Shown here: positions 22,523-34,010 of the stretch, one piece after another
Layout of the letters: each line of letters opens with the position of its first letter
Position numbering within the stretch: the first letter of the stretch is position 1
Assembly: GCF_016695175.1 (NCBI RefSeq)
Contig: NZ_CP068023.1
Coordinates: 1,558,501-1,622,500, forward strand
DNA: 64,000 nt
Direction of reading: 5' to 3'
Source of the DNA: Pseudoalteromonas sp. GCY
GTDB lineage: Bacteria; Pseudomonadota; Gammaproteobacteria; Enterobacterales; Alteromonadaceae
Notes under the pieces: generated by a model
The model's input: only the letters and a program-made list of their open reading frames with translations
Databases searched by the model: none
Told to the model about the DNA's origin: nothing
Translations under genes and position numbers: made by a program

Positions 22523-23560
22523 CTATTGTGTGATCCTACCCGTGCTTTCACGAACTACCATACTCGGTGTGAACACATGTGAGACTTCTTTATCATTTTT
22601 TCGATGTCCACGTGTTTTAGAAAACAATAAACGCGCAGCATGCTCAGAAATAATGTTGTTAGCCTGATGTGCAGTCGTAAGCTTTGGCCAAGTTTGGCGG
22701 GAGAATGGAGAGTCCTCAAAGCCACTGATAGACAATTGACCCGGGATCTCTATATTCATCAGCCGCGCAGCAAATAAAGCTCCAGCGGCTACCTCATCGT
22801 TACCACCTAAAATCGCAGTGATTTGGTTTGGATTACCATCGGCCAGCAGCGCTTTAGCGCCTTTTACCCCAGATTCAAATGAGTACGTACCGTGATAGAG
22901 CAGCGTATCGTCTTGTTTTATATCGTGTGCTTTCAGGGCATCGCGATATCCGGCTAACCGTTCCGTCGTTGATTTGTGCTCTTCATCCCCAAGTACAAAA
23001 GCAATTTTTTTATGTCCAAGTTGGATTAAATGCTCAGTAATTTCATAGGCTGCAGCGTAGTCGTCAACAAAGATACAGTTATTTGCGCTATTTTTCGCTT
23101 CTTGCGCTCGACCAGAAAGTAGACGCACGTAATGTATGCCCAGCTCATCTAGCATATCAATAATGGCTTGTTGCTCGGATAGAGGAGGAGTCAAGACCAA
23201 ACCTGCAAGACGTGAGCGTTTGATCATAGTGACGAATTCTTCGGCCATATTTTCCGAATTGGATTCACAGGGGTGGATGACGAGCTCATACCCTTCATCT
23301 CTACAGCGAGATAACACCCCGTTTTGCATATCAATGACATAATACGCATTGGGATTGTCGTAGACCAAGCCAATTGCAAATGAAGAAGTACCAGCTAAGT
23401 TTCTCGCAGCAATATTAGGTTGATAATTAAGCTCTTTTACAGCCTGCATTACTTGATCGTAGGTTTTTTTTCTAACCGAAGGTTCTTTATTGATTACCCG
23501 CGATACGGTTTTCATAGATACGCCAGCTAGCTTGGCAACATCATTAATAGTGACTTTCAT
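22523..23560 (-). CDS. LacI-family transcriptional regulator
   Basis: A 345-aa regulator. The helix-turn-helix and hinge helix are at residues 1-60 (TINDVAKLAGVSMKTVSRVIN, YQPNIAARNL). The periplasmic-binding-protein-like effector domain follows, with typical ILGGNDEVAAGALFAARL, SISGFEDSPFSRQTWPKLTT and VVRESTG segments. It is divergent from pgi. The sequence TGACAGCGTTGTCA, a LacI-type box with central CG, occurs before pgi and twice before the TonB-dependent receptor, making these likely targets. I see no matching box directly before its own start. The effector is likely a sugar or sugar phosphate, but this is inference. Confidence 0.93.
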   Translation of the reverse strand: MKVTINDVAKLAGVSMKTVSRVINKEPSVRKKTYDQVMQAVKELNYQPNIAARNLAGTSSFAIGLVYDNPNAYYVIDMQNGVLSRCRDEGYELVIHPCESNSENMAEEFVTMIKRSRLAGLVLTPPLSEQQAIIDMLDELGIHYVRLLSGRAQEAKNSANNCIFVDDYAAAYEITEHLIQLGHKKIAFVLGDEEHKSTTERLAGYRDALKAHDIKQDDTLLYHGTYSFESGVKGAKALLADGNPNQITAILGGNDEVAAGALFAARLMNIEIPGQLSISGFEDSPFSRQTWPKLTTAHQANNIISEHAARLLFSKTRGHRKNDKEVSHVFTPSMVVRESTGRITQ

Positions 23561-23832
23561 GTAGTTGTTCTTCTATTTACAGGTCTGTATCGATCATTAT
23601 TAAGCACAGAGGAATAGTAGCGCTTTATGTATGCAGAAGCTAGCGCCCAATTTCTGAGATATTTAGCCGCTCAGGCGACCATCGGCTTAATAAAAGGATC
23701 ATCTGTTTTTCTTAGTCTATCTAATAAGTACAGAATTTAGCACTACAATTCGCAGAAATAAATGAATGATACCGGTGTCAAAAATTTTATTTTAGGTTAT
23801 TATTCGCAATGTAAAATTGAAAAGAAGCAATT

Positions 23833-23846
23833 TGACAGCGTTGTCA
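23833..23846. promoter_or_regulatory. Predicted LacI-type operator before pgi
   Basis: TGACAGCGTTGTCA, palindromic except for one mismatched pair near the centre. It is 97 bp before the pgi start. TTGACA overlaps it at 23832-23837 and a second TTGACA lies at 23849-23854; either could be the -35 hexamer, so binding would block the promoter. The region 23561-23942 holds no gene and no other clear site. Confidence 0.75.
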
Positions 23847-23942
23847 TTTTGACATAATGTGCTTGTTTAATAATGTTTCTTTGTTGTTACTACCTGAAAA
23901 GTAAGGTAACTAACAATCACTTACGTCTTAGGGGAATATGTA

Positions 23943-25589
23943 ATGGGTGGTCGTGTAGATTTGGATAGTTGGCAAAAGCTCAATGGTTCTGCGCAGCGAG
24001 TAAAGCAACAGCATTTAAAAACGATGTTTGCAAACGATGCACAAAGGTTTGAAAAGTTCTCTCGTCAAATCCCAGGTGTATTGTTCGACTTTTCCAAGCA
24101 ACGCATTGACGACCAAACATTCTCTGAGATGATGCAGCTCGCAAAAGAGAGCGATATTGCGCTTTGGCGAGAAAAGATGTTCTCAGGTGAAAAAATAAAT
24201 ATCACTGAGGACCGAGCGGTTTTACATACGGCGCTGCGTAACCGTGTTAATACACCTATTTATGTGGATGGTGTAAATGTTACTGAACAAGTCAATGCGG
24301 AATTAGAAAAACTACAAGCATTTAGTAACCGAGTTCGTTCAGGCGAATGGCAAGGGTATACAGGCAAAGCCGTAAAAGATGTGGTTGCGATTGGCGTTGG
24401 TGGTTCTAACTTAGGCCCGCAAATGGTAACTGATGCGCTTGCTGCGTATGCAGATGACACGCTAAACGTGCATTATGTTTCGAATGTTGACGGTGTACAG
24501 ATTGCTTCAGTATTAAAAGGTTTGGACGCAGAAACAACCCTGTTTGTTGTGTCATCAAAAACGTTCACAACCTCTGAAACCATGACTAATGCAAAGACTG
24601 CCGTTGAGTGGTTTTTGAATGCTGCAAATGATAGAGCAGCAATCGCCAAGCATTTTGTCGCGGTGAGCACCAACCTTGAGAAGACCAGAGCGTTTGGTAT
24701 TAGCGATGACAACGTGTTCACGATGTGGGACTGGGTTGGCGGTCGTTTCTCGCTTTGGAGCGCAATCGGATTACCAATCGCACTTTATTTAGGCTTCGAT
24801 AAGTTTGTCGAAGTGCTTGAAGGTGCGTTTGAAATTGACGAGCATTTTAAAACGGCAAACAACGAAGACAATATTCCATTGTTGATGGCGTTGCTTAGTG
24901 TATGGAATACCAGCTTCTTGGGGTATCAAGCACAAGCGATTTTGCCTTATGATCAGGCGCTTCATATGCTGCCTGCGTATTTACAACAAGGTGAAATGGA
25001 AAGTAATGGTAAGCATGTTACTTTTGCAGGAGAGCAGGTAAACTATACGACTGTGCCAATTATTTGGGGCATGACAGGGATAAATGGCCAGCACGCTTTT
25101 TACCAGTGTTTACACCAAGGTAATGTGATTGTACCGGCTGATTTTATCGCTTCGATTGAACCGCAAAACAAAGTAGGCCAGCATCACGATATTTTACTGT
25201 CTAACTTCTTCGCGCAAACGGAAGCAATGATGGCAGGTGTAGATGCACAGCAGGTTCGTGAAGATTTAACGGCTAAAGGTAAGTCGGATGCGGAAATCGA
25301 CAAGTTGATCCCGCATAAAATACACCAAGGTAACCGTCCAACTTCTTCATTTATCTTAGATAAGGTAGATGCAAAAGCTGTGGGTCGACTAATTGCCTTG
25401 TATGAACACAAAATTTTCTGCCAAGGCATTATTTTGGATGTGTGTTCATTTGACCAGTGGGGTGTTGAGCTTGGTAAAGGGCTTGCTTCAAATATTGAAG
25501 CCGAGCTAACACAAGAAGGCGTTACTAACCCTCATGATAGCTCAACGGCGGGTCTAATCGCTTATTACAAGCAAAAGAGAACAAATTAA
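23943..25589 (+). CDS. pgi: Glucose-6-phosphate isomerase
   Basis: A 548-aa enzyme (usual bacterial length ~549) interconverting glucose-6-phosphate and fructose-6-phosphate in the cytoplasm. The substrate-binding motifs are clear: VGVGGSNLGPQM, VVSSKTFTTSETM, WDWVGGRFSLWSAIGLP (PGI signature 1), GQHAFYQCLHQG and the final signature GVELGKGLA. It starts at ATG after AGGGGAATATGTA. The LacI-type operator lies in its promoter region. It is the first of three sugar-phosphate genes (pgi, zwf, pgl) on this strand; a 288-bp gap separates it from zwf, so zwf may have its own promoter. Confidence 0.98.
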   Translation: MGGRVDLDSWQKLNGSAQRVKQQHLKTMFANDAQRFEKFSRQIPGVLFDFSKQRIDDQTFSEMMQLAKESDIALWREKMFSGEKINITEDRAVLHTALRNRVNTPIYVDGVNVTEQVNAELEKLQAFSNRVRSGEWQGYTGKAVKDVVAIGVGGSNLGPQMVTDALAAYADDTLNVHYVSNVDGVQIASVLKGLDAETTLFVVSSKTFTTSETMTNAKTAVEWFLNAANDRAAIAKHFVAVSTNLEKTRAFGISDDNVFTMWDWVGGRFSLWSAIGLPIALYLGFDKFVEVLEGAFEIDEHFKTANNEDNIPLLMALLSVWNTSFLGYQAQAILPYDQALHMLPAYLQQGEMESNGKHVTFAGEQVNYTTVPIIWGMTGINGQHAFYQCLHQGNVIVPADFIASIEPQNKVGQHHDILLSNFFAQTEAMMAGVDAQQVREDLTAKGKSDAEIDKLIPHKIHQGNRPTSSFILDKVDAKAVGRLIALYEHKIFCQGIILDVCSFDQWGVELGKGLASNIEAELTQEGVTNPHDSSTAGLIAYYKQKRTN

Positions 25590-25723
25590 TACTTCGAGTG
25601 GAACTGGAAGTGAACAGAATACCTTTGAACGGGTAGCGCTGGAGTACTTAGAACCTGTATTTTTGTGAGAGGAAATACAGGTTTCTAAGACTCATTTATA
25701 CCAACTTACTTAATTAATCCCTC

Positions 25724-25755
25724 AAATTGGGCAGGTATTAAGTCGAATTGATATT
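25724..25755 (+). repeat. Dispersed palindromic repeat, copy B
   Basis: This is the most diverged full-length core copy (about 27-28 of 32 matches to copy C by eye). The left flank ATACCAACTTACTTAAT is an imperfect inverted match to the right end ATTAAGTCGAATTGATAT, so a longer element of about 60 bp (roughly 25699-25757) is present. It lies in the 288-bp pgi-zwf gap, which otherwise shows no gene or clear terminator. Confidence 0.55.
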
Positions 25756-25877
25756 ACTAGTGCATTGCAATCGAAATCATCACCCGTTACATAATGAGTT
25801 TGGTAGGCTTTGGAGTGGCTCCAAATCGAATAAACACTGCGTGCTTGTAGTGCACGCCTAACTTATGAGAGTGAACT

Positions 25878-27347
25878 ATGCTTAATCCTTTTGACATCGT
25901 AATTTTTGGTGGGGGAGGCGATTTAGCTCTTCGCAAACTCCTACCTGCTTTGTATCGTGCATATCAAGAAGGTAATCTACCTGAAGGCACTCGCATCTTA
26001 CCGACCGTTCGTGAACAAAACAAACAACAAGAATTTATCGAAACGGCACATATCGCATTACAAACTCACCTTGGCAAAGGCGAATACAACAAGAAAGATT
26101 GGTCCGCATTTGAACAGTTTTTAGTGCCTGTGGTAGTCAATGTTACTGAAGAAGACGAACACTGGGATACGCTAAAGAATATTTTGGCAGATGGGGAAGA
26201 TAAGTCTCGTGTATTCTATTTGTCACTTCCACCTGCGGTTTATGGCCGTTGTTGTGAGTTACTATCAATCAAAGGGCTAATCACTGAGCAATCACGTGTA
26301 GTTGTTGAAAAGCCTATTGGTTATTGTGGTAAATCTGCAGAAGAAATCAATGCCAAAATAGGTGAGTTCTTCTCGGAAGAGCAAGTATTCCGTATCGATC
26401 ATTACCTAGGTAAAGAAACGGTTCAAAACCTGATGGCGCTAAGATTCTCAAACGCACTTTTTGAGAATTTATGGGATGCTAAAGCCATAGATAATATTCA
26501 GATCAGTATCTCTGAAACGGTAGGTCTTGAAAGCCGAGCTGGTTTTTACGACAAAGCGGGTGCACTTCGTGATATGGTGCAAAATCACTTATTGCAACTA
26601 CTTTGCTTGGTTGCGATGGAGTCACCACATAAACTTAATGCGAATAGCATCCGCACTGAAAAGCTTAAAGTATTAGAAGCGCTTAGACCGCTAATAGACG
26701 CTGATGTAGATAATAATGTTGTGCGTGGTCAATATGTGCCAGGCGACCTTGAAGGTAAGCTGGTACCTGGTTACTTAGAAGAGCTGGGCGAAGGGTCGAG
26801 TAAAACAGAAACATTTGTTGCTATTCGTGCTCACATTGATAACTGGCGTTGGTCTGGCGTGCCTTTCTATTTAAGAACAGGGAAGCGTATGAAAAAGCGT
26901 TGTGCTGAAATTGTGGTTGAGTACAAGCCTGTTTCTCACAATGTTTATGGTGATGCGGCGGGTCCAATTCAGCCAAACCGTCTGGTAATAAGATTACAAC
27001 CTGAAGAAAGTATTCAGTTAACGCTAATGTCTAAGCGTCTAGATAACCTTGAAATGCAACTAGAGCCGGTGACGCTAAATATCTCATTGAGTGAAAAGTA
27101 TAACAATGGCTATCATTCAGATGCATATAAGCGCTTAATGCTTGACGCAGCTGCAAATAATCCTGCTTTATTTATTCACCGTGACGAAGTGCGCCAAGCA
27201 TGGCAATGGATTGATCCAATCATTGAGCGTTGGCAGAGCAAAGGGGCTCCGTCACTTTATCGTGCTGGTTCTTGGGGCCCTGAAGATGCCGATGAACTGT
27301 TAGAAGAAAACAAACATGTTTGGTTCAACGCGGGAGAGCAAGCGTAA
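25878..27347 (+). CDS. zwf: Glucose-6-phosphate 1-dehydrogenase
   Basis: A 489-aa enzyme oxidising glucose-6-phosphate to 6-phosphogluconolactone with NADP. The N-terminal dinucleotide motif is FGGGGDLALRKLLPALY, the catalytic signature RIDHYLGKE is near residue 173, and the VVEKPIG segment is present. The length equals E. coli Zwf (491 aa). It feeds the pentose phosphate or Entner-Doudoroff pathway. Its stop overlaps the pgl start as TAATG. No HexR-type palindrome was recognised in the pgi-zwf gap, so control may be through the LacI regulator or an unseen site. Confidence 0.97.
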   Translation: MLNPFDIVIFGGGGDLALRKLLPALYRAYQEGNLPEGTRILPTVREQNKQQEFIETAHIALQTHLGKGEYNKKDWSAFEQFLVPVVVNVTEEDEHWDTLKNILADGEDKSRVFYLSLPPAVYGRCCELLSIKGLITEQSRVVVEKPIGYCGKSAEEINAKIGEFFSEEQVFRIDHYLGKETVQNLMALRFSNALFENLWDAKAIDNIQISISETVGLESRAGFYDKAGALRDMVQNHLLQLLCLVAMESPHKLNANSIRTEKLKVLEALRPLIDADVDNNVVRGQYVPGDLEGKLVPGYLEELGEGSSKTETFVAIRAHIDNWRWSGVPFYLRTGKRMKKRCAEIVVEYKPVSHNVYGDAAGPIQPNRLVIRLQPEESIQLTLMSKRLDNLEMQLEPVTLNISLSEKYNNGYHSDAYKRLMLDAAANNPALFIHRDEVRQAWQWIDPIIERWQSKGAPSLYRAGSWGPEDADELLEENKHVWFNAGEQA

Positions 27348-28057
27348 TGGCACAGTTAACAGAAAGAAATTTCAGCTCCAAAGACGAGATGACAGCAGCG
27401 CTTGCAGAGCTACTTCAAGCTGGGCTCAGTCAAGGTATTGAGCAGGACGGTGAAGCTGTGCTGTTAGTATCTGGTGGTTCATCACCGGCTCCAGCGTATC
27501 GTTACCTTTCTGGTGTTGAACTAGGCTGGGACAAAATTACGGTTGCTATGGTTGATGAACGCTGGGTCGAACCGGAACACGAAAAGTCTAACGAAGCATT
27601 TATCAAGTCGACATTACTGCAAGACAAAGCGGCAAATGCTCGATTTGTGACGATGAAGAATGCGGCAGTGTCAGCAGAAGAGGGCGCTGATTTATGTGAG
27701 TCTGCTTATGCAGCGTTGAAAAAACCGTTCGATGTTACTATTTTGGGAATGGGACCTGATGGTCATACCGCCAGTTTATTTCCAAATGCAAAGGGCCTAG
27801 AGCACGCGTTAACGACCACAAACACTGTGTGCGCAATTAATGCTCATCAAAGCGAAGTGACAGGTGAGATCACAGAACGTATGAGTCTGTCCCTCGCGGG
27901 GATTGCTAATGCTAAGACGGTAGTGTTATTGATCTCTGGTGATGAAAAAAAAGCGGTGTATGAAGCGGCAAAACAATCCGGCTCAGAGTATGAAGTACCA
28001 CTGCGCGCTGTATTAAATCACCCTGATATTAATTTGACCGTATTTTGGTGCCCGTAA
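27347..28057 (+). CDS. pgl: 6-phosphogluconolactonase
   Basis: A 236-aa DevB-type lactonase hydrolysing 6-phosphogluconolactone to 6-phosphogluconate. The motifs VSGGSSPAPAYRYLS, VAMVDERWVEPEHEKSNE and LGMGPDGHTASLFPN are intact. The start is the ATG at 27347 overlapping the zwf stop by one base, with GGGAGAG about 9 nt upstream. The following step (edd/eda or gnd) is not encoded next to it; a tandem repeat and the TonB-dependent receptor come next. Confidence 0.95.
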   Translation: MAQLTERNFSSKDEMTAALAELLQAGLSQGIEQDGEAVLLVSGGSSPAPAYRYLSGVELGWDKITVAMVDERWVEPEHEKSNEAFIKSTLLQDKAANARFVTMKNAAVSAEEGADLCESAYAALKKPFDVTILGMGPDGHTASLFPNAKGLEHALTTTNTVCAINAHQSEVTGEITERMSLSLAGIANAKTVVLLISGDEKKAVYEAAKQSGSEYEVPLRAVLNHPDINLTVFWCP

Positions 28058-28176
28058 CCCGAGTGCATCTACTAGAAATAGTAAAATGTAAGGCTGGCGT
28101 GATAGCTAGCCTTGTCTCGATATTATTTGAGTCAACTGATTGAATATCTCTGGACATTCAGCTCGAAGCGACAACA

Positions 28177-28274
28177 CTTCTTACTTCTTACTTCTTACTT
28201 CTTACTTCTTACTTCTTACTTCTTACTTCTTACTTCTTACTTCTTACTTCTTACTTCTTACTTCTTACTTCTTA
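28177..28274. repeat. Tandem heptamer array, 14 x CTTCTTA
   Basis: Fourteen uninterrupted copies of the 7-bp unit CTTCTTA span 98 bp, 120 bp after the pgl stop. A perfect array of this kind is prone to slippage and is probably variable in length between strains. It lies in a 787-bp intergenic region that also contains two LacI-type operators and an inverted repeat. The frame running through it would give a repeated LLLTSYF peptide, which I regard as an artefact. Confidence 0.95.
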
Positions 28275-28461
28275 CGAATAAAAGCAATAAATTTTACTGA
28301 TTCAATATACGATCATTAGAAAATCAATAAGTCCCGTAATAGGGTATTCAAATTTGTGCAAAAGATAGTGATAGCTAACTCGCTAATCGTAGATTTTATA
28401 AGCCTTTGTCATAAAAAATTCTCCTAAAAGAACTAGACAGTACTTACAGATAAATCTATAA

Positions 28462-28475
28462 TGACAGCGTTGTCA
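28462..28475. promoter_or_regulatory. Predicted LacI-type operator, distal copy
   Basis: TGACAGCGTTGTCA again, extended to the 18-bp AATGACAGCGTTGTCATT with only the central pair mismatched. It lies 370 bp before the TonB-dependent receptor start and 313 bp from the proximal copy, about thirty helical turns, a spacing compatible with DNA looping. Confidence 0.75.
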
Positions 28476-28524
28476 TTGATATTGATTCTCATCTTTAGCT
28501 TCTGCCCAAGCTTGATGAGGGAGT

Positions 28525-28552
28525 TGAATACACATCCCCTTGTGTGTATTCA
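28525..28552. promoter_or_regulatory. Perfect 10-bp inverted repeat upstream of receptor gene
   Basis: TGAATACACA and TGTGTATTCA are exact reverse complements around an 8-nt spacer. No T run follows on either strand, so a binding site or RNA hairpin is more likely than a terminator. Confidence 0.5.
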
Positions 28553-28774
28553 GATAATTAAAATGTCCCTTTATTGAGACAATTCCATCTTAAAACCCTA
28601 CAGCAGCAAAATTTTTTGTGCTATTCTCCAATCGTTTTTGTAACAAACCATATCTTGGCCATATTTAAATTTATATTTATCAATAAGATATATGTCTATA
28701 TGAATATTTTTTGAATAACAGGCCAAAAAAATTGTAGCGAATATGTAATTTAGGGTGTATGGTTTGTTATTAGA

Positions 28775-28788
28775 TGACAGCGTTGTCA
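28775..28788. promoter_or_regulatory. Predicted LacI-type operator, proximal copy
   Basis: TGACAGCGTTGTCA within GATGACAGCGTTGTCATC, 18 bp palindromic except the central pair. It ends 56 bp before the GTG start of the receptor gene, the usual place for repression of a promoter. Confidence 0.78.
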
Positions 28789-28844: not shown

Positions 28845-31586
28845 GTGTTAGCTAATAATTTCAAAAAAAGCTTACTTGCAGTTAACGTCAGCATCGCACT
28901 AGGTGCGGGCTTTTCAGGCGTTGTAGTTGCAGAAGAAAGTCAAAATCAAGTACAAGAAAACGTAGAAGTCATTGAAGTTCGTGGCTTGCGAGCATCAAAC
29001 AAAGAGAATATTAATACAAAAAGATTCGCGACTGCAGTTGTTGATGCAGTGAGCGCTGAAGATATTGGTAAATTTCCTGATTCAGACGTGGGTCAAGCGT
29101 TAGGGCGTATTCCAGGTATTAGCGTTGGACGAGCTTTTGGTCAAGGTAGTTCTGTATCAATTAGAGGTACTGATCCTTCTATGACGTTGACTACGTTAAA
29201 CGGCCAGAATGTGGCTTCAACTGGTTGGTATGATCAAATGAATTTAGACCGTTCATTTAATTATTCTATGTTACCGTCACAGCTGATAGGCGGAATTGAA
29301 GTTTATAAAGCGACACAGGCGAATCTGGTTGAAGGTGGTATCGGTGGTACAGTAATCGTAAAAACACGCAAGCCTCTTGATTTAGAATCTAATACATCGT
29401 TTCTTTCGCTAAAAGGCGAGTATGGTACCCTAAACGAGGAGATATCTCCTGAAGTTTCTGGGCTATACAGTTGGAAAAACAAAGATGAAACTTTTGGTGT
29501 ACTTGTAGCCGCTGCATACATCGATCGTGAATATCTTCGTCAAGGCACCGAAGCCGATCTTGATTGGGGTGGAAACTCATCAGTACAACCTTCAAGTTTT
29601 TTACAAGATCAAGAGCGCACAGCTATAGATGTAACGCTTCAATATCGTCCAACAGAAAAGCTTGAATTGGGTATTCACGCACTTTCATTAGAGCTCGGCG
29701 CTGACAGCACTGGTGCTAATATGTACTTTGGTACTGATAATAACTGGGGCGCTTGGACACCGGAAGAATCAGTATGTAAAACTTACAATGCTGCTGGCGT
29801 CTGTACATATAGCGATACGCCAAAAGATAGAGGAAGCAACGTATTTTTCCAAAATTGGGCTCGCCAAGGAGAAATGACTTCAGACACTCTAGAATTTAAC
29901 TGGAAGTACCAGTCTGATACTTATGAAATCTCAGGTGTTCTTGGTCATTCGAAAGCGGAAGGTGGTACAGACATGAGTGCTAACTTTGGTTTTGGTTGGT
30001 GGGGAAATGCTTATGTTGATGGAAATGGACTAAAGCAAACGTCCGATGCTAACTTCGACCAAGTAAACTGGTGGGGGGTCGTAGATGCAACTGGTAAACA
30101 AATAAAACTTGATGGTGCTGATCTTGGCTTTACCGTTGAACAGCTACCTGCATATGGTACAACATCTACTTGGACAGGTATAAAGGGTCCAAATAAAGAT
30201 GAGGAAGTGTATGGTCAAGTTGATTTTGATTACTACGTTGACTTTGGCGCGATCAACAAACTTGAGTTTGGGGTAAGATATACTGAACATGAATTTGAGA
30301 AAAAGCTATATACGGCTGTATACGACCAGTCAAAAATAACAGCCCCAGCAGATGGTGAAAATGCAGGAGGTTTTGCCAACTATTTTAGTGTTCAGGATTT
30401 ATATAGCGGTACAATGCCAATTGGCTATGATGGTTGGACTATTCCTCGTGCAAACCGAGATGCAATGATTAATGCTACATTGTCTCTAATCGATCAGTTT
30501 GCTTATAACCGTTCGGGCTACGGAAAAATAGAAGAAGACAATCTGTCATTGTATGCTATGGCGTCTTTTGAAGGCGAAGGTTTCCGGGGTAACTTCGGGC
30601 TAAGATATGTCAGTACAGATGTGACTTCAAAAGGTCATATCATCGATAATAGCCCAGCTGATATTCTTGCAAATAACAATGGTTGGAGCGAAGCTCCAGT
30701 AGGTGTTGATGGTGATTACAATGATGTGTTGCCAAGTGCTAATATTACCTTTGACCTATCTGAAGACTTAATTCTTCGCGTTTCAGCTGGTCAAGCTATT
30801 ACTCGTCCAAACTACGATAACTTACTACTTTCAAAAGTAACTGGTTATCCTGATGACCGTATTGGTAATGAGGAGATTACTTACGGTAATCCTGACCTGA
30901 AACCAATGAAATCATCTCAAGCTGATGTTAGTTTAGAGTATTATTATGGTGAAGATGGCCTATTTGCCGTAACTTACTTTATAAAGGATGTGAGTAATTT
31001 TATTGTTGCGACGACTGATTTTAATCAACAAATTGGTGTAATTAATAATGACCTTACTACACCAGCTGATGATTGGACCGTAAATCGCTATAAAAATGCA
31101 GGTGGCGGCGAGATTGATGGCGTTGAATTCCAGTGGAATCATGCTTGGGATAATGGGTTTGGTATAAACGCTAACTACACATACACAGATGCAGGTGCAC
31201 CAGCAGAGGTTTATACTGATAATCTATCCCGTTTTACCGAGTCATCAGAGCATATGCTAAATCTAGTTGGCTATTGGGAAAATGATGAATTCTCGGCGAG
31301 AGCAGCGTATAACTGGAGATCTGAATACATGATTCGTGAATATGGTAACTATTACGGAAACCGTATGCACGATGACTTTGGTACACTTGATTTAACTTTC
31401 GGTTGGCAAGTTACAGACTACGCAGCGTTGACATTTGAAGTCGTAAATGTTACCGAGGAAGATGATGTTCAGTATGGTGCGGCAGAGGTTGGTGCTGATG
31501 TTAAGCCTGCGCTTCAGGATGGTTTCCCAACATGGTCTTTCCGTGGCGAAGCAACTTATAGATTAGGTGTTAATTTTAACTTCTAA
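28845..31586 (+). CDS. TonB-dependent outer-membrane receptor, probably for a glycan
   Basis: A 913-aa receptor of the TonB-Xanth-Caul type. It starts at GTG with AAGGGGA about 6 nt upstream. A signal peptide ends near VVVAEE (residue ~30). The TonB box region is VEVIEVRG. The plug domain contains IGKFPDSDVGQALGRIPGISV, SVSIRGTDPSMTLTTLNGQ and the VEGGIGGTVIVKTRKPLDL end. A long beta-barrel follows, ending in YRLGVNFNF with the C-terminal phenylalanine needed for BAM insertion. This subfamily typically imports oligosaccharides, and linkage to pgi-zwf-pgl and a LacI regulator supports a sugar. The ligand is unknown. Confidence 0.93.
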   Translation: MLANNFKKSLLAVNVSIALGAGFSGVVVAEESQNQVQENVEVIEVRGLRASNKENINTKRFATAVVDAVSAEDIGKFPDSDVGQALGRIPGISVGRAFGQGSSVSIRGTDPSMTLTTLNGQNVASTGWYDQMNLDRSFNYSMLPSQLIGGIEVYKATQANLVEGGIGGTVIVKTRKPLDLESNTSFLSLKGEYGTLNEEISPEVSGLYSWKNKDETFGVLVAAAYIDREYLRQGTEADLDWGGNSSVQPSSFLQDQERTAIDVTLQYRPTEKLELGIHALSLELGADSTGANMYFGTDNNWGAWTPEESVCKTYNAAGVCTYSDTPKDRGSNVFFQNWARQGEMTSDTLEFNWKYQSDTYEISGVLGHSKAEGGTDMSANFGFGWWGNAYVDGNGLKQTSDANFDQVNWWGVVDATGKQIKLDGADLGFTVEQLPAYGTTSTWTGIKGPNKDEEVYGQVDFDYYVDFGAINKLEFGVRYTEHEFEKKLYTAVYDQSKITAPADGENAGGFANYFSVQDLYSGTMPIGYDGWTIPRANRDAMINATLSLIDQFAYNRSGYGKIEEDNLSLYAMASFEGEGFRGNFGLRYVSTDVTSKGHIIDNSPADILANNNGWSEAPVGVDGDYNDVLPSANITFDLSEDLILRVSAGQAITRPNYDNLLLSKVTGYPDDRIGNEEITYGNPDLKPMKSSQADVSLEYYYGEDGLFAVTYFIKDVSNFIVATTDFNQQIGVINNDLTTPADDWTVNRYKNAGGGEIDGVEFQWNHAWDNGFGINANYTYTDAGAPAEVYTDNLSRFTESSEHMLNLVGYWENDEFSARAAYNWRSEYMIREYGNYYGNRMHDDFGTLDLTFGWQVTDYAALTFEVVNVTEEDDVQYGAAEVGADVKPALQDGFPTWSFRGEATYRLGVNFNF

Positions 31587-31647: not shown

Positions 31648-33162
31648 ATGAATATAACCAAGATCGCAATTGTTGGTGGGGGCACAGCTGGTTGGCTAGC
31701 AGCTAATCATCTCGGCTTAGCGCTTTCTTCAAATAGCAATGTCGAGATTACAGTAATTGAATCTTTAGATATACCAAGTATTGGTGTTGGAGAAGGTACA
31801 GTTCCTTACATAGTTAAAAGCCTAAAAAAATTTGGTATTTCTGAAGCGGAGCTTTTGGGGAGCTGTGATGCTACCTTCAAGCAGGGGATAAGATTTGTTT
31901 CGTGGCTTGATGAAAAAGTTCATGGAGCACATAACTTTTATTATCACCCATTTGAAGCGCCATATCCCGAAGGACTGGATATAACTAATATATGGTTAAA
32001 TTTAGGGAAAAAAATACCGTTTGATTACGTTGGGATACAATCAAGGGTCTGTGAATCGGGGCTTGCACCTAAACTAAAAACCGATGGCAACTATCAAGGT
32101 GTGCTACCATACGCATATCATTTCGATGCAGCAAAATTCGCAAAATTGCTCAAACGTAATGCCCTAGATAGATTTAATGTCAGAGTTTTAAATGGAACAG
32201 TTGATGAATCTAAACTAGATCAAACAGGACATATTGAATCTCTTTGCATGACAAATGGAGACATACTGCATTTTGACTTTTACGTAGATTGTACTGGTTT
32301 TTCAGCGAAGCTAATAAGCTCAGTTTCTAATGACAGTTTTCAGGATAAAAGTGAGCAGTTGTTGGTAGATACAGCGCTAGTACAGCAGATAGAAAGAGAT
32401 GATCCAAGCAGCTTGAATCCTTACACAACGGCAACCGCACATAAAGCTGGCTGGATGTGGGAAATCCCCCTTACTTCCCGTACTGGAACTGGTTTTGTTT
32501 ATGCGTCTAAATATATGTCACATAAAGAGGCTTTAGAAACGTATGCAAGAATGCTGAATGTTGACTCTGTGAATCCTAGAAAAATAGAAATGAGAGTGGG
32601 CTATAGGAATCAAAGCTGGAGTAAAAATTGTGTAGCGCTAGGACTAGCGCAGGGGTTTGTCGAGCCTTTGGAAGCAACATCTATTTTACTAACAGACTTT
32701 TCTGCGGAATTCTTGTCGAAGAATTTCCCACTTTCTAGAGCTGAGATATCGGTATTCAGTGACCACTATAATGATGCAGTGAACTGCGCATGGGAAAGTA
32801 CAATCGATTTCATCCAGTTGCATTATATCCTTTCTGACAGGGTTGATAGTGACTTTTGGGTAGAGTATCGAAGCGATGTAAAGCTCTCAGACTCTCTAGA
32901 GCGGAAGCTTGCAAAATTTAGGCTACGTTCGCCCCAACAAATGGATTTTTGGAGTCGCTTTGAGCTATTTAATGAAAAGAACTTTTTATATGTTCTGTAT
33001 GGAATGAAATTTAACACTCACCCGCAAACGACGTCTCAAGCAGAGTTTGATATTGGGCTTAAATTATTAGATAAGAACAATGAGCAACTAAGGCGAGCTA
33101 AAGGAGCTCTTTTAGATCATGGAGAGTGGCTTAAACAATTTAAGCAATATATGTCATCGTAA
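31648..33162 (+). CDS. Flavin-dependent tryptophan halogenase-like protein
   Basis: A 504-aa FAD protein of the PrnA/RebH family. The FAD motif is GGGTAGWLAAN (residues 10-20). The GVGEGTVP segment and Lys78 in DATFKQGIRF correspond to the conserved region with the catalytic lysine. WMWEIP (269-274) fits the WxWxIP halogenase motif, and GFVEPLEATS (336-345) carries the conserved glutamates. Halogenase chemistry is therefore possible. However, genes of this family commonly accompany TonB-dependent receptors and SapC in Alteromonadales and Caulobacterales without any natural-product cluster, and their function there is unknown. No flavin reductase gene is adjacent. Ribosome site: GAGGGCGAG. Confidence 0.88.
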   Translation: MNITKIAIVGGGTAGWLAANHLGLALSSNSNVEITVIESLDIPSIGVGEGTVPYIVKSLKKFGISEAELLGSCDATFKQGIRFVSWLDEKVHGAHNFYYHPFEAPYPEGLDITNIWLNLGKKIPFDYVGIQSRVCESGLAPKLKTDGNYQGVLPYAYHFDAAKFAKLLKRNALDRFNVRVLNGTVDESKLDQTGHIESLCMTNGDILHFDFYVDCTGFSAKLISSVSNDSFQDKSEQLLVDTALVQQIERDDPSSLNPYTTATAHKAGWMWEIPLTSRTGTGFVYASKYMSHKEALETYARMLNVDSVNPRKIEMRVGYRNQSWSKNCVALGLAQGFVEPLEATSILLTDFSAEFLSKNFPLSRAEISVFSDHYNDAVNCAWESTIDFIQLHYILSDRVDSDFWVEYRSDVKLSDSLERKLAKFRLRSPQQMDFWSRFELFNEKNFLYVLYGMKFNTHPQTTSQAEFDIGLKLLDKNNEQLRRAKGALLDHGEWLKQFKQYMSS

Positions 33163-33299: not shown

Positions 33300-34010
33300 A
33301 TGGCGGAACAACAAGTGCAGCCTTTACACAACGAAAAGCACGCTAATATCAAAGTAAAAAATGGCGTGAACGTTGATTTCCTTAAAACTCAGCACTTAAT
33401 GCCTGTAGTGGCGCATGAGTTTGCGCGTGTAGCGACAGAATTCCCAATGGCGTTTGTTAAAAACACTGAGTCAGGTCAATTTCAAGCGGTTGCTATGTTT
33501 GGTCTTCAGCCTGGTGAAAACCTATTTGTTGATGGTGATAAGTGGACTGGCAGCTTTGTGCCAATGGCCGCTGCACGTTACCCGTTTGGTTTGGTTAAGC
33601 ACCCAGAGCAAGATCAGTTTGGTATTGTTATTGATGAAGCAAGTCCGCTAGTTGGTGAAGAAGAAGGCAATGCGCTTTTCGAAGACGGTAAAGAAACTGA
33701 ATACCTAGGTCGTCGTAAAGAAGCGTTAGTTAGCTATGTTGAGTTTGCTCGCGTAACTGAAGCGTTTACTCAGTATCTTGCTGACAAAGAGCTTCTAGTT
33801 CAACAAACGCTAACGGTAGAAATCCGTGGTGAGAAAAAAGACATCAACGGTATCTACCTTGTGGATGAGCGTAAGCTAAACGAATTAGGTGACGAAGATT
33901 TCCTAGAGCTACGTAAACGTGGCTATTTAGCACCGATCTTCGCATTCTTAACTTCTACGCATCAAGTTGCGAGTCTTGCACGTATGAAGGCACAGCGCGA
34001 AGCGAGCTAA
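33300..34010 (+). CDS. SapC-family protein
   Basis: A 236-aa protein of the SapC family (named after a Campylobacter S-layer-linked protein). Recognisable parts are MPVVAHEFARVATEFPMAFVKN, the NLFVDGDKWTGSFVPMAAARYPF block and the final LRKRGYLAPIFAFLTSTHQVASLARMK. There is no signal peptide, so it is probably cytoplasmic. SapC genes recur next to TonB-dependent receptors and halogenase-like genes; the biochemical role is unknown. It is 137 bp after the halogenase-like gene and is followed by a strong terminator that ends the cassette. Confidence 0.88.
   Translation: MAEQQVQPLHNEKHANIKVKNGVNVDFLKTQHLMPVVAHEFARVATEFPMAFVKNTESGQFQAVAMFGLQPGENLFVDGDKWTGSFVPMAAARYPFGLVKHPEQDQFGIVIDEASPLVGEEEGNALFEDGKETEYLGRRKEALVSYVEFARVTEAFTQYLADKELLVQQTLTVEIRGEKKDINGIYLVDERKLNELGDEDFLELRKRGYLAPIFAFLTSTHQVASLARMKAQREAS

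Follow-up and report, generated by a model that had tools for sequence, protein, structure and literature searches.

A predicted NagR regulon that reaches into central metabolism

The window analyzed in this study, 64,000 nucleotides from Pseudoalteromonas sp. GCY, lies on the larger contig (4.18 Mb) of a 5.47-Mb genome whose other contig measures 1.29 Mb. It contains a LacI-family regulator gene divergent from pgi and three identical copies of a palindromic 14-mer, TGACAGCGTTGTCA (hereafter the N-box), one located before pgi and two before the gene for a TonB-dependent receptor. Comparison with related genomes indicates that the regulator is probably NagR, the N-acetylglucosamine (GlcNAc) repressor. 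On the same comparative grounds, it is highly probable that NagR represses pgi, the receptor cassette, nagK-nagA, nagB, and metE/metR, and that this repression is relieved by GlcNAc or a derivative.

Copies of the N-box and identity of the regulator

An earlier note on the window had placed the boxes at positions 23833, 28462, and 28775; all three were recovered without a mismatch, and the genes behind them are as that note described. By simple arithmetic, a fixed 14-mer is expected in approximately 0.0005 copies on both strands of 64 kb. When up to three mismatches were allowed, 15 matches were found in the window compared to 5.5 expected, a number reached in none of 100 shuffles, although near-palindromic boxes score on both strands in this count. 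The 5.47-Mb genome contains eight exact copies, and a reversed-pattern control produced none. Besides the three in the window, these copies are located at nagK-nagA, at nagB, in the metE/metR gap, and, in two cases, within coding sequence. On the chromosome that carries the window, one exact box starts 38 bp ahead of nagK-nagA, a BadF-type kinase gene with an amidohydrolase gene behind it, and another starts 123 bp ahead of nagB, which encodes a member of the glucosamine-6-phosphate isomerase family. We assigned the names nagK, nagA, and nagX from family, gene order, and the Shewanella pathway; nagX has no Pfam match at 1e-5.

Because intergenic copies occur at nagK-nagA, nagB, and metE/metR, the adjacent LacI-family gene (22523-23560, minus strand, 345 amino acids) is best read as nagR, a probable identification supported by relatives in other genera that carry the same box and adjoin nagK, nagA, or TonB-dependent receptor genes. 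Its Pfam profiles (LacI and Peripla_BP_3; PF00356, PF00532, and PF13377) describe a LacI helix-turn-helix joined to a periplasmic-binding-protein-like sensor. Seventeen of the named LacI equivalog families in NCBIfam (RbsR, PurR, GalR, CcpA, and others) match the protein, none of them above its cut-off (best 187 vs 382 bits), so none of those names applies. Apart from two distant receptors, searches of solved structures returned nothing beyond generic relatives in the LacI family. The closest regulator from a named species, among the best 80 of 545 relatives, is that of Pseudoalteromonas flavipulchra NCIMB 2033, with 99% identity, and the genus sampled below was accordingly taken as Pseudoalteromonas.

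The distribution of the box within the genus was examined in 60 genomes sampled from a larger group, all of which match the regulator at 1e-50. These matches were split by identity into a NagR type (55-100%) and LacI2-like paralogues (approximately 38-44%), the latter without a tree. The NagR type, the box, and nagK (E <= 1e-60) each occur in 53 of the 60 genomes, and these are the same 53; the same seven genomes (G154, G155, G157, G162, G168, G177, and G183) lack all three. The box is exact before nagK in all 53 nagK-bearing genomes, and it was found in all 28 nagB loci examined (27 exact, one with a single mismatch). At the level of the order, 30 of 148 genomes contain a regulator match at E <= 1e-60. 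Nineteen of the 40 matching loci outside the present genome were read, all from other genera and from among the higher-ranking matches, with two from one genome. An exact TGACARCGYTGTCA is present in 16 of the 19, only a one-mismatch form in two, and none in one, and the boxes usually adjoin nagK, nagA, receptor, Trp-halogenase-like, or SapC genes. Three Shewanella loci (L248, L253, and L257) encode a NagR with 57-58% identity together with a receptor and a box, and a further locus (L039), which groups with Shewanella in the NagR tree, carries nagK. The scan of related genomes that the earlier note had suggested, for the 14-mer together with the LacI orthologue, thus found the boxes conserved. 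That note had also proposed that the adjacent regulator controls pgi and the uptake cassette. The co-occurrence of box and regulator (53/53 vs 0/7), together with the box at pgi described below (47/47 vs 0/13), argues for this control and suggests that the regulator binds the boxes.

The box at pgi within the genus

In the window, the N-box before pgi (23833-23846) is followed by pgi, encoding glucose-6-phosphate isomerase (23943-25589, plus strand; PRK00179, 787 bits), zwf, encoding glucose-6-phosphate dehydrogenase (25878-27347, plus strand; TIGR00871, 546 bits), and pgl, encoding 6-phosphogluconolactonase (27347-28057, plus strand; TIGR01198, 174 bits), all of which pass their NCBIfam cut-offs. 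The divergent arrangement of nagR and pgi is found in 47 of the 60 genomes, and every one of these has a box before pgi: TGACAGCGTTGTCA in 44, TGACAGCGCTGTCA in two, and the one-mismatch form TGATAGCGTTGTCA in one. Across these 47 genomes the box starts 94-181 bp ahead of the start codon, and its mean identity to the window is 99.5%, compared to 71% and 61% in the 20-bp flanks and 51% over the whole 333-bp nagR-pgi region. In the remaining 13 genomes, seven without NagR and six with nagR elsewhere, no box with one mismatch or fewer was found at pgi.

The most serious alternative, which we nevertheless consider unlikely, is that box and pgi are mere neighbors by descent and that the box in the gap serves autoregulation of nagR. 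Two facts favor it: the gap is divergent, with nagR on its other side, and pgi lacks a box in the six genomes that carry nagR in another place. Against it stand the position of the box ahead of the pgi start in all 47 genomes and the overlap of its TGACA with a TTGACA hexamer that reads towards pgi (23832-23837), as well as the recurrence of the arrangement outside the genus: in Thalassotalea and Colwellia the box likewise lies between nagR and pgi, and five Microbulbifer loci have it at the start of a whole Entner-Doudoroff cluster. A single box in the gap could also serve both genes. No -10 element was found at a spacing of 16-18 bp from the TTGACA hexamer in a sigma-70 scan of the pgi region, where the sole match at 9 of 12 positions was 23775-23803 (shuffle mean 1.5).

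In the six genomes with nagR elsewhere (L108-L113), the gene is Colwelliaceae-like and is found together with boxes at a different locus, where nagK adjoins in five of the six stretches. In a tree of 79 NagR rows and one outgroup, these six form their own clade among Colwelliaceae sequences, outside the other sampled NagRs of the genus; the fork joining the six is weakly supported. Apparently, nagR was lost and later re-acquired in these genomes.

Distribution in other lineages

A survey of named loci covered the best 80 of 545 relatives and so does not give rates; it overlaps with the 60-genome set, and the two sets of counts were not summed. Within these 80 loci the exact box is present in 78, pgi diverges from nagR in 61, and an exact box lies between the two genes in 60 of the 61, with the sole miss (L223) having a one-mismatch box at a locus cut by a contig end. 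A pgi divergent from nagR was found in Pseudoalteromonas (38 of 39 loci, the miss, L199, being a 3.4-kb contig), Thalassotalea (5/6), Colwellia (5/5), Thalassomonas (1/1), Alteromonadaceae not further named (3/4), Microbulbifer (5/7), Aliikangiella (2/2), Kangiellaceae (1/1), and gammaproteobacterial metagenome-assembled genomes (MAGs; 1/2). It was found in none of the three Shewanella loci, the three Rheinheimera loci, or seven other single loci. In the P. prydzensis locus L210, the order is nagR, both boxes, and pgi; P. prydzensis ACAM 620 is a strain for which gene deletions have been described (PMC9537276). When presence of pgi is mapped onto the NagR tree, 11 changes result, at least seven of which are forced by well-supported branches, so the history of the arrangement includes several gains or losses.

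In five Microbulbifer and two Aliikangiella loci the box stands at the head of a pgi-edd-zwf-pgl-eda-gapA cluster, and in the Kangiellaceae locus and one MAG at the head of pgi-edd-zwf-pgl-eda. The other two Microbulbifer loci have edd-zwf-pgl-eda-gapA without pgi, and in one of them (L242) an exact box precedes it. The earlier note had added that control might perhaps extend to zwf-pgl, a suggestion that gains weight from these nine box-headed clusters.

The receptor promoter and its cassette

The receptor (28845-31586, plus strand; TIGR01782, 614 bits, with Plug and barrel domains) belongs to the TonB-Xanth-Caul subfamily and is probably a receptor for GlcNAc or chitooligosaccharides. It is 69% identical to the NagR-adjoining TonB-dependent receptor of L043, a locus whose NagR groups with Shewanella, and it is followed by genes for a tryptophan-halogenase-like flavoprotein (31648-33162, plus strand; PF04820, 433 bits) and a SapC-family protein (33300-34010, plus strand; PF07277, 237 bits). 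Both boxes before the receptor are exact (distal, 28462-28475; proximal, 28775-28788). A promoter-like TAGACA-N17-TATAAT (28434-28462, plus strand) matches the consensus at 11 of 12 positions, and the last base of its TATAAT is the first base of the distal box. This is a consensus match only, from a region in which shuffles average 3.6 matches at 9 or more of 12 positions. The overlap of the distal box with the -10 element and the position of the proximal box would be compatible with repression.

The interval between pgl and the next large open reading frame contains two exact boxes in 39 of the 47 genomes with nagR at pgi, one in two, and none in six; one of these six (L103) has a box pair further on, and the other five have none there. 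The two boxes are 313 bp apart in the window, as the earlier note had stated, and that note considered the distance compatible with DNA looping. Looping is not supported, because the spacing in the 39 two-box loci is not fixed and varies between 32 and 472 bp. Ahead of the promoter lies a tandem array, (ACTTCTT)14 (28176-28275), which has 76, 10, and 17 copies in the near relatives L056, L057, and L058, so the length of the array varies.

The neighborhood of the proximal box is conserved while the receptor downstream changes: receptor identity falls to 36% and 38% in L057 and L058, whose NagR is 97-99% identical to that of the window. These two loci and L182, a further close relative with a NagR in the same 97-99% range, have a different receptor (36-49% identity) behind conserved boxes, and the SapC gene is kept with 99% identity in L057. 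Such a pattern suggests exchange of the cassette behind a fixed promoter. It also means that the substrate of the locus may vary, which lends something to the idea of a purely local regulator that responds to a sugar other than GlcNAc, taken up through this receptor, and controls receptor and pgi. Because nagK-nagA and nagB, which share the chromosome with this locus, have the identical box ahead of them, and because related regulators adjoin nagK or nagA in other genera, this idea is very improbable.

The metE/metR gap and other sites in the genus

An exact box lies between metE and metR at position 2895070 of contig C2 of the present genome (L019:8071). The box was found in this gap in 42 of the 47 genomes with nagR at pgi (37 exact, five with one mismatch, none in the other five) and in none of the remaining 13 genomes of the genus. 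The 14-mer is strongly conserved within the gap and the surrounding bases are variable. Either NagR acts on metE or metR, or another protein may recognize the same site.

Further sites were examined in 20 loci that were picked by hand from eight of the 60 genomes and therefore do not yield rates. Intergenic boxes were observed in the vicinity of a gene for the exo-muramidase NamZ or for a look-alike of it (L334, L344), near AnmK and a glycoside hydrolase family 3 (GH3) enzyme (L348), and 49 bp ahead of a distant nagX-like gene (L352). In two loci (L335, L343) the box adjoins a cluster of receptor, D-serine-dehydratase, and amidohydrolase genes resembling the ong cluster described for P. prydzensis in the accessible text of PMC9537276. 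The boxes near NamZ, ong-like, and AnmK/GH3 genes may extend the reach of NagR into the use of muropeptides and oxidized chitin in some species. Boxes within coding sequence, in genes for a glycoside hydrolase family 18 (GH18) chitinase or a second receptor, were seen in the present genome (L016:5118, L016:5193 with one mismatch, and L017:7233) and in several species (L337, L339, L341, L345, L346, L351, and L353; L336, L338, L342, and L347). They may be genuine operators within genes or may merely follow from constraint on the protein.

A second LacI-type box at pgi and the paralogue LacI2

A second LacI-type palindrome, TGATACCGGTGTCA (the G-box; 23767-23780), which the earlier note did not record, lies 66 bp upstream of the N-box at pgi. 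Of the 47 genomes with nagR at pgi, 44 have both boxes, at a distance of 66 bp in 40, 65 bp in two, and 33 bp in two; the G-box is missing in three. It is also present at pgi in all 13 genomes of the genus without an N-box there, including the seven without NagR, and the motif TGAYACCGGTGTCA occurs in all 60. In the present genome, G-boxes are located at glk, edd-eda-gapA (two), pgi, the pykA/gnd gap, pckA (a pair), and gltB (L036:7488, 9858, and 9891; C2:1509664, 1981463, and 3839765/3839797; and 23767 in the window). The likely reader of the G-box, judging from position and helix similarity, is LacI2, a paralogue encoded between glk and edd that is 40-42% identical to the window regulator and has LacI2-like counterparts (38-44% identity) in all 60 genomes. 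The set of G-boxes is probably the regulon of LacI2, which would make this protein a candidate regulator of central carbon metabolism in the genus. RpiR-family matches occur in 48 of the 60 genomes, 45 of them over the cut-off, and neither a HexR identity nor a HexR site was established among them.

Could LacI2, beside glk and edd-eda-gapA, be the main reader of the N-boxes as well, leaving the adjacent LacI-family gene incidental? The recognition helices are nearly identical (VSKKTVSRV in LacI2, VS[IM]KTVSRV in NagR), the LacI2-type operator form, TGACACCGGTGTCA, differs from the N-box consensus at one position per half-site, and a LacI2-type box lies only 66 bp from an N-box. However, LacI2-like paralogues are found in all 60 genomes, seven of which have no N-box at all and yet keep the G-box at pgi (7/7). 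LacI2 alone therefore does not explain the N-box, whose distribution follows NagR and nagK, and this alternative has very little probability left.

Proposed mechanism and its weighing

Dimers of NagR are predicted to occupy TGACARCGYTGTCA ahead of pgi, and so to act on pgi and perhaps also on zwf-pgl. Further predicted sites of occupancy are the receptor-halogenase-SapC cassette, nagK-nagA, nagB, and, in this genus, metE/metR. When GlcNAc is absent, all of these targets would be held down; GlcNAc or a derivative would release NagR. With GlcNAc derived from chitin present, the receptor would import chitooligosaccharide, and NagK, NagA, and NagB would yield fructose-6-phosphate, which a higher level of Pgi, together with Zwf and Pgl, would carry to glucose-6-phosphate and into the Entner-Doudoroff/NADPH branch. 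The promoter of pgi would receive two inputs, from NagR at the N-box and probably from LacI2 at the G-box. The coupling of outer-membrane import to glucose-6-phosphate metabolism, as put forward in the earlier note, is retained here in a changed form: the probable signal is GlcNAc rather than glucose, and the connection would lead from the catabolism of amino sugars to fructose-6-phosphate and glucose-6-phosphate instead of starting at glucose uptake itself.

Several observations weigh against this explanation. Two of the eight exact boxes in the genome are intragenic, in a GH18 chitinase gene beside a chitin lytic polysaccharide monooxygenase gene and in a second receptor gene; among the 20 further loci the box is inside a coding open reading frame in 12, mostly of these same two kinds, and a common peptide (DSVV-like) may dictate the letters. 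Two of the eight intergenic boxes among those loci (L349, L350) have no visible link to amino sugars. One Microbulbifer locus (L252) has edd-zwf-pgl-eda-gapA beside nagR, and no box with two mismatches or fewer was found before it. In the window, the 288-bp gap after pgi means that zwf may have its own promoter. The 13 genomes without a box at pgi may belong to one or a few clades and would then represent fewer than 13 independent events, and the Shewanella comparison was made with NagRs other than S. oneidensis SO3516 itself. Metabolic necessity, in which the lack of a phosphofructokinase would have placed Pgi under NagR, was rejected for this genome, which encodes a PfkA with a GGDGS motif, presumably of the ATP type. 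PF00365 is present in 44 of the 60 genomes, the present one included, and its 16 absences are more common without the pgi box (10/13) than with it (6/47). In other lineages the idea may still hold.

A broader reading, to which we give roughly even chances, is that NagR took over pgi in several marine gammaproteobacterial lineages, the Entner-Doudoroff cluster in Microbulbifer, Aliikangiella, and Kangiellaceae, and metE/metR in Pseudoalteromonas, such that GlcNAc from chitin sets both carbon routing and methionine synthesis and the pgi promoter of Pseudoalteromonas acts as a gate for two LacI paralogues. If this is true, a pathway-specific repressor has captured the entry to the Entner-Doudoroff/NADPH branch, tying the amino sugar of chitin to central metabolism. 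With its two near-identical LacI operators at a near-fixed spacing, the pgi promoter would be a clean natural system in which to examine how LacI paralogues separate their signals, and the metE/metR box would connect the use of chitin with methionine synthesis in an unexpected and testable way.

Comparison with known systems

In the accessible text of ten papers (PMC4052901, PMC2996990, PMC5343134, PMC3223726, PMC9537276, PMC3400609, PMC5424254, PMC10549210, PMC13055268, and PMC4518329), neither pgi nor metE is placed under NagR; RegPrecise and the supplementary tables were beyond reach, and priority is uncertain. PMC10549210 was considered as a link between NagR and metE and rejected, the match in its accessible text being the name of an instrument. 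Leyn et al. (2016, PMC5343134) described NagR regulons of Proteobacteria, with NagR in 25 genomes from four taxa. The main text of that study, as far as accessible, mentions neither pgi nor Pseudoalteromonas; its Table S3 and RegPrecise, outside the search, may list pgi.

The predicted target set of LacI2 resembles those of PckR, GapR, and GluR, LacI-family regulators of Alphaproteobacteria with targets among glk, zwf-pgl, edd-eda, gap, pykA, and pckA (PMC4052901). The comparison covered target sets, and the accessible text of the source does not mention Pseudoalteromonas or Alteromonas. Extension of an amino-sugar regulator into central metabolism has a parallel in NagC of Vibrionales, which reaches gapA, gapB, fbaA, pgk, and eno; however, NagC belongs to an unrelated protein family (ROK), and the central genes are others, without pgi-zwf-pgl in the accessible account (PMC5343134). 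NagR of Xanthomonas has a GlcNAc kinase and TonB-dependent receptors among its targets, and GlcNAc regulons in the same source extend to chitin genes (PMC5343134).

The closest known system is the NagR regulon of Shewanella (PMC3223726), in which electrophoretic mobility shift assay and quantitative PCR have demonstrated control of nagP, nagK, and omp_Nag by a LacI-family repressor whose negative effector is GlcNAc. As in the present case, nagK, nagA, and a TonB-dependent receptor stand under predicted operators in S. oneidensis, in a regulon for GlcNAc catabolism. The regulon there comprises nagP, omp_Nag, nagK-nagBII-nagA, mcp_Nag-hex, and cbp, with no mention of pgi in the accessible text. 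In that study zwf served as the negative control for quantitative PCR, whereas in Pseudoalteromonas sp. GCY the box is carried by metE/metR and by pgi, with zwf-pgl behind it.

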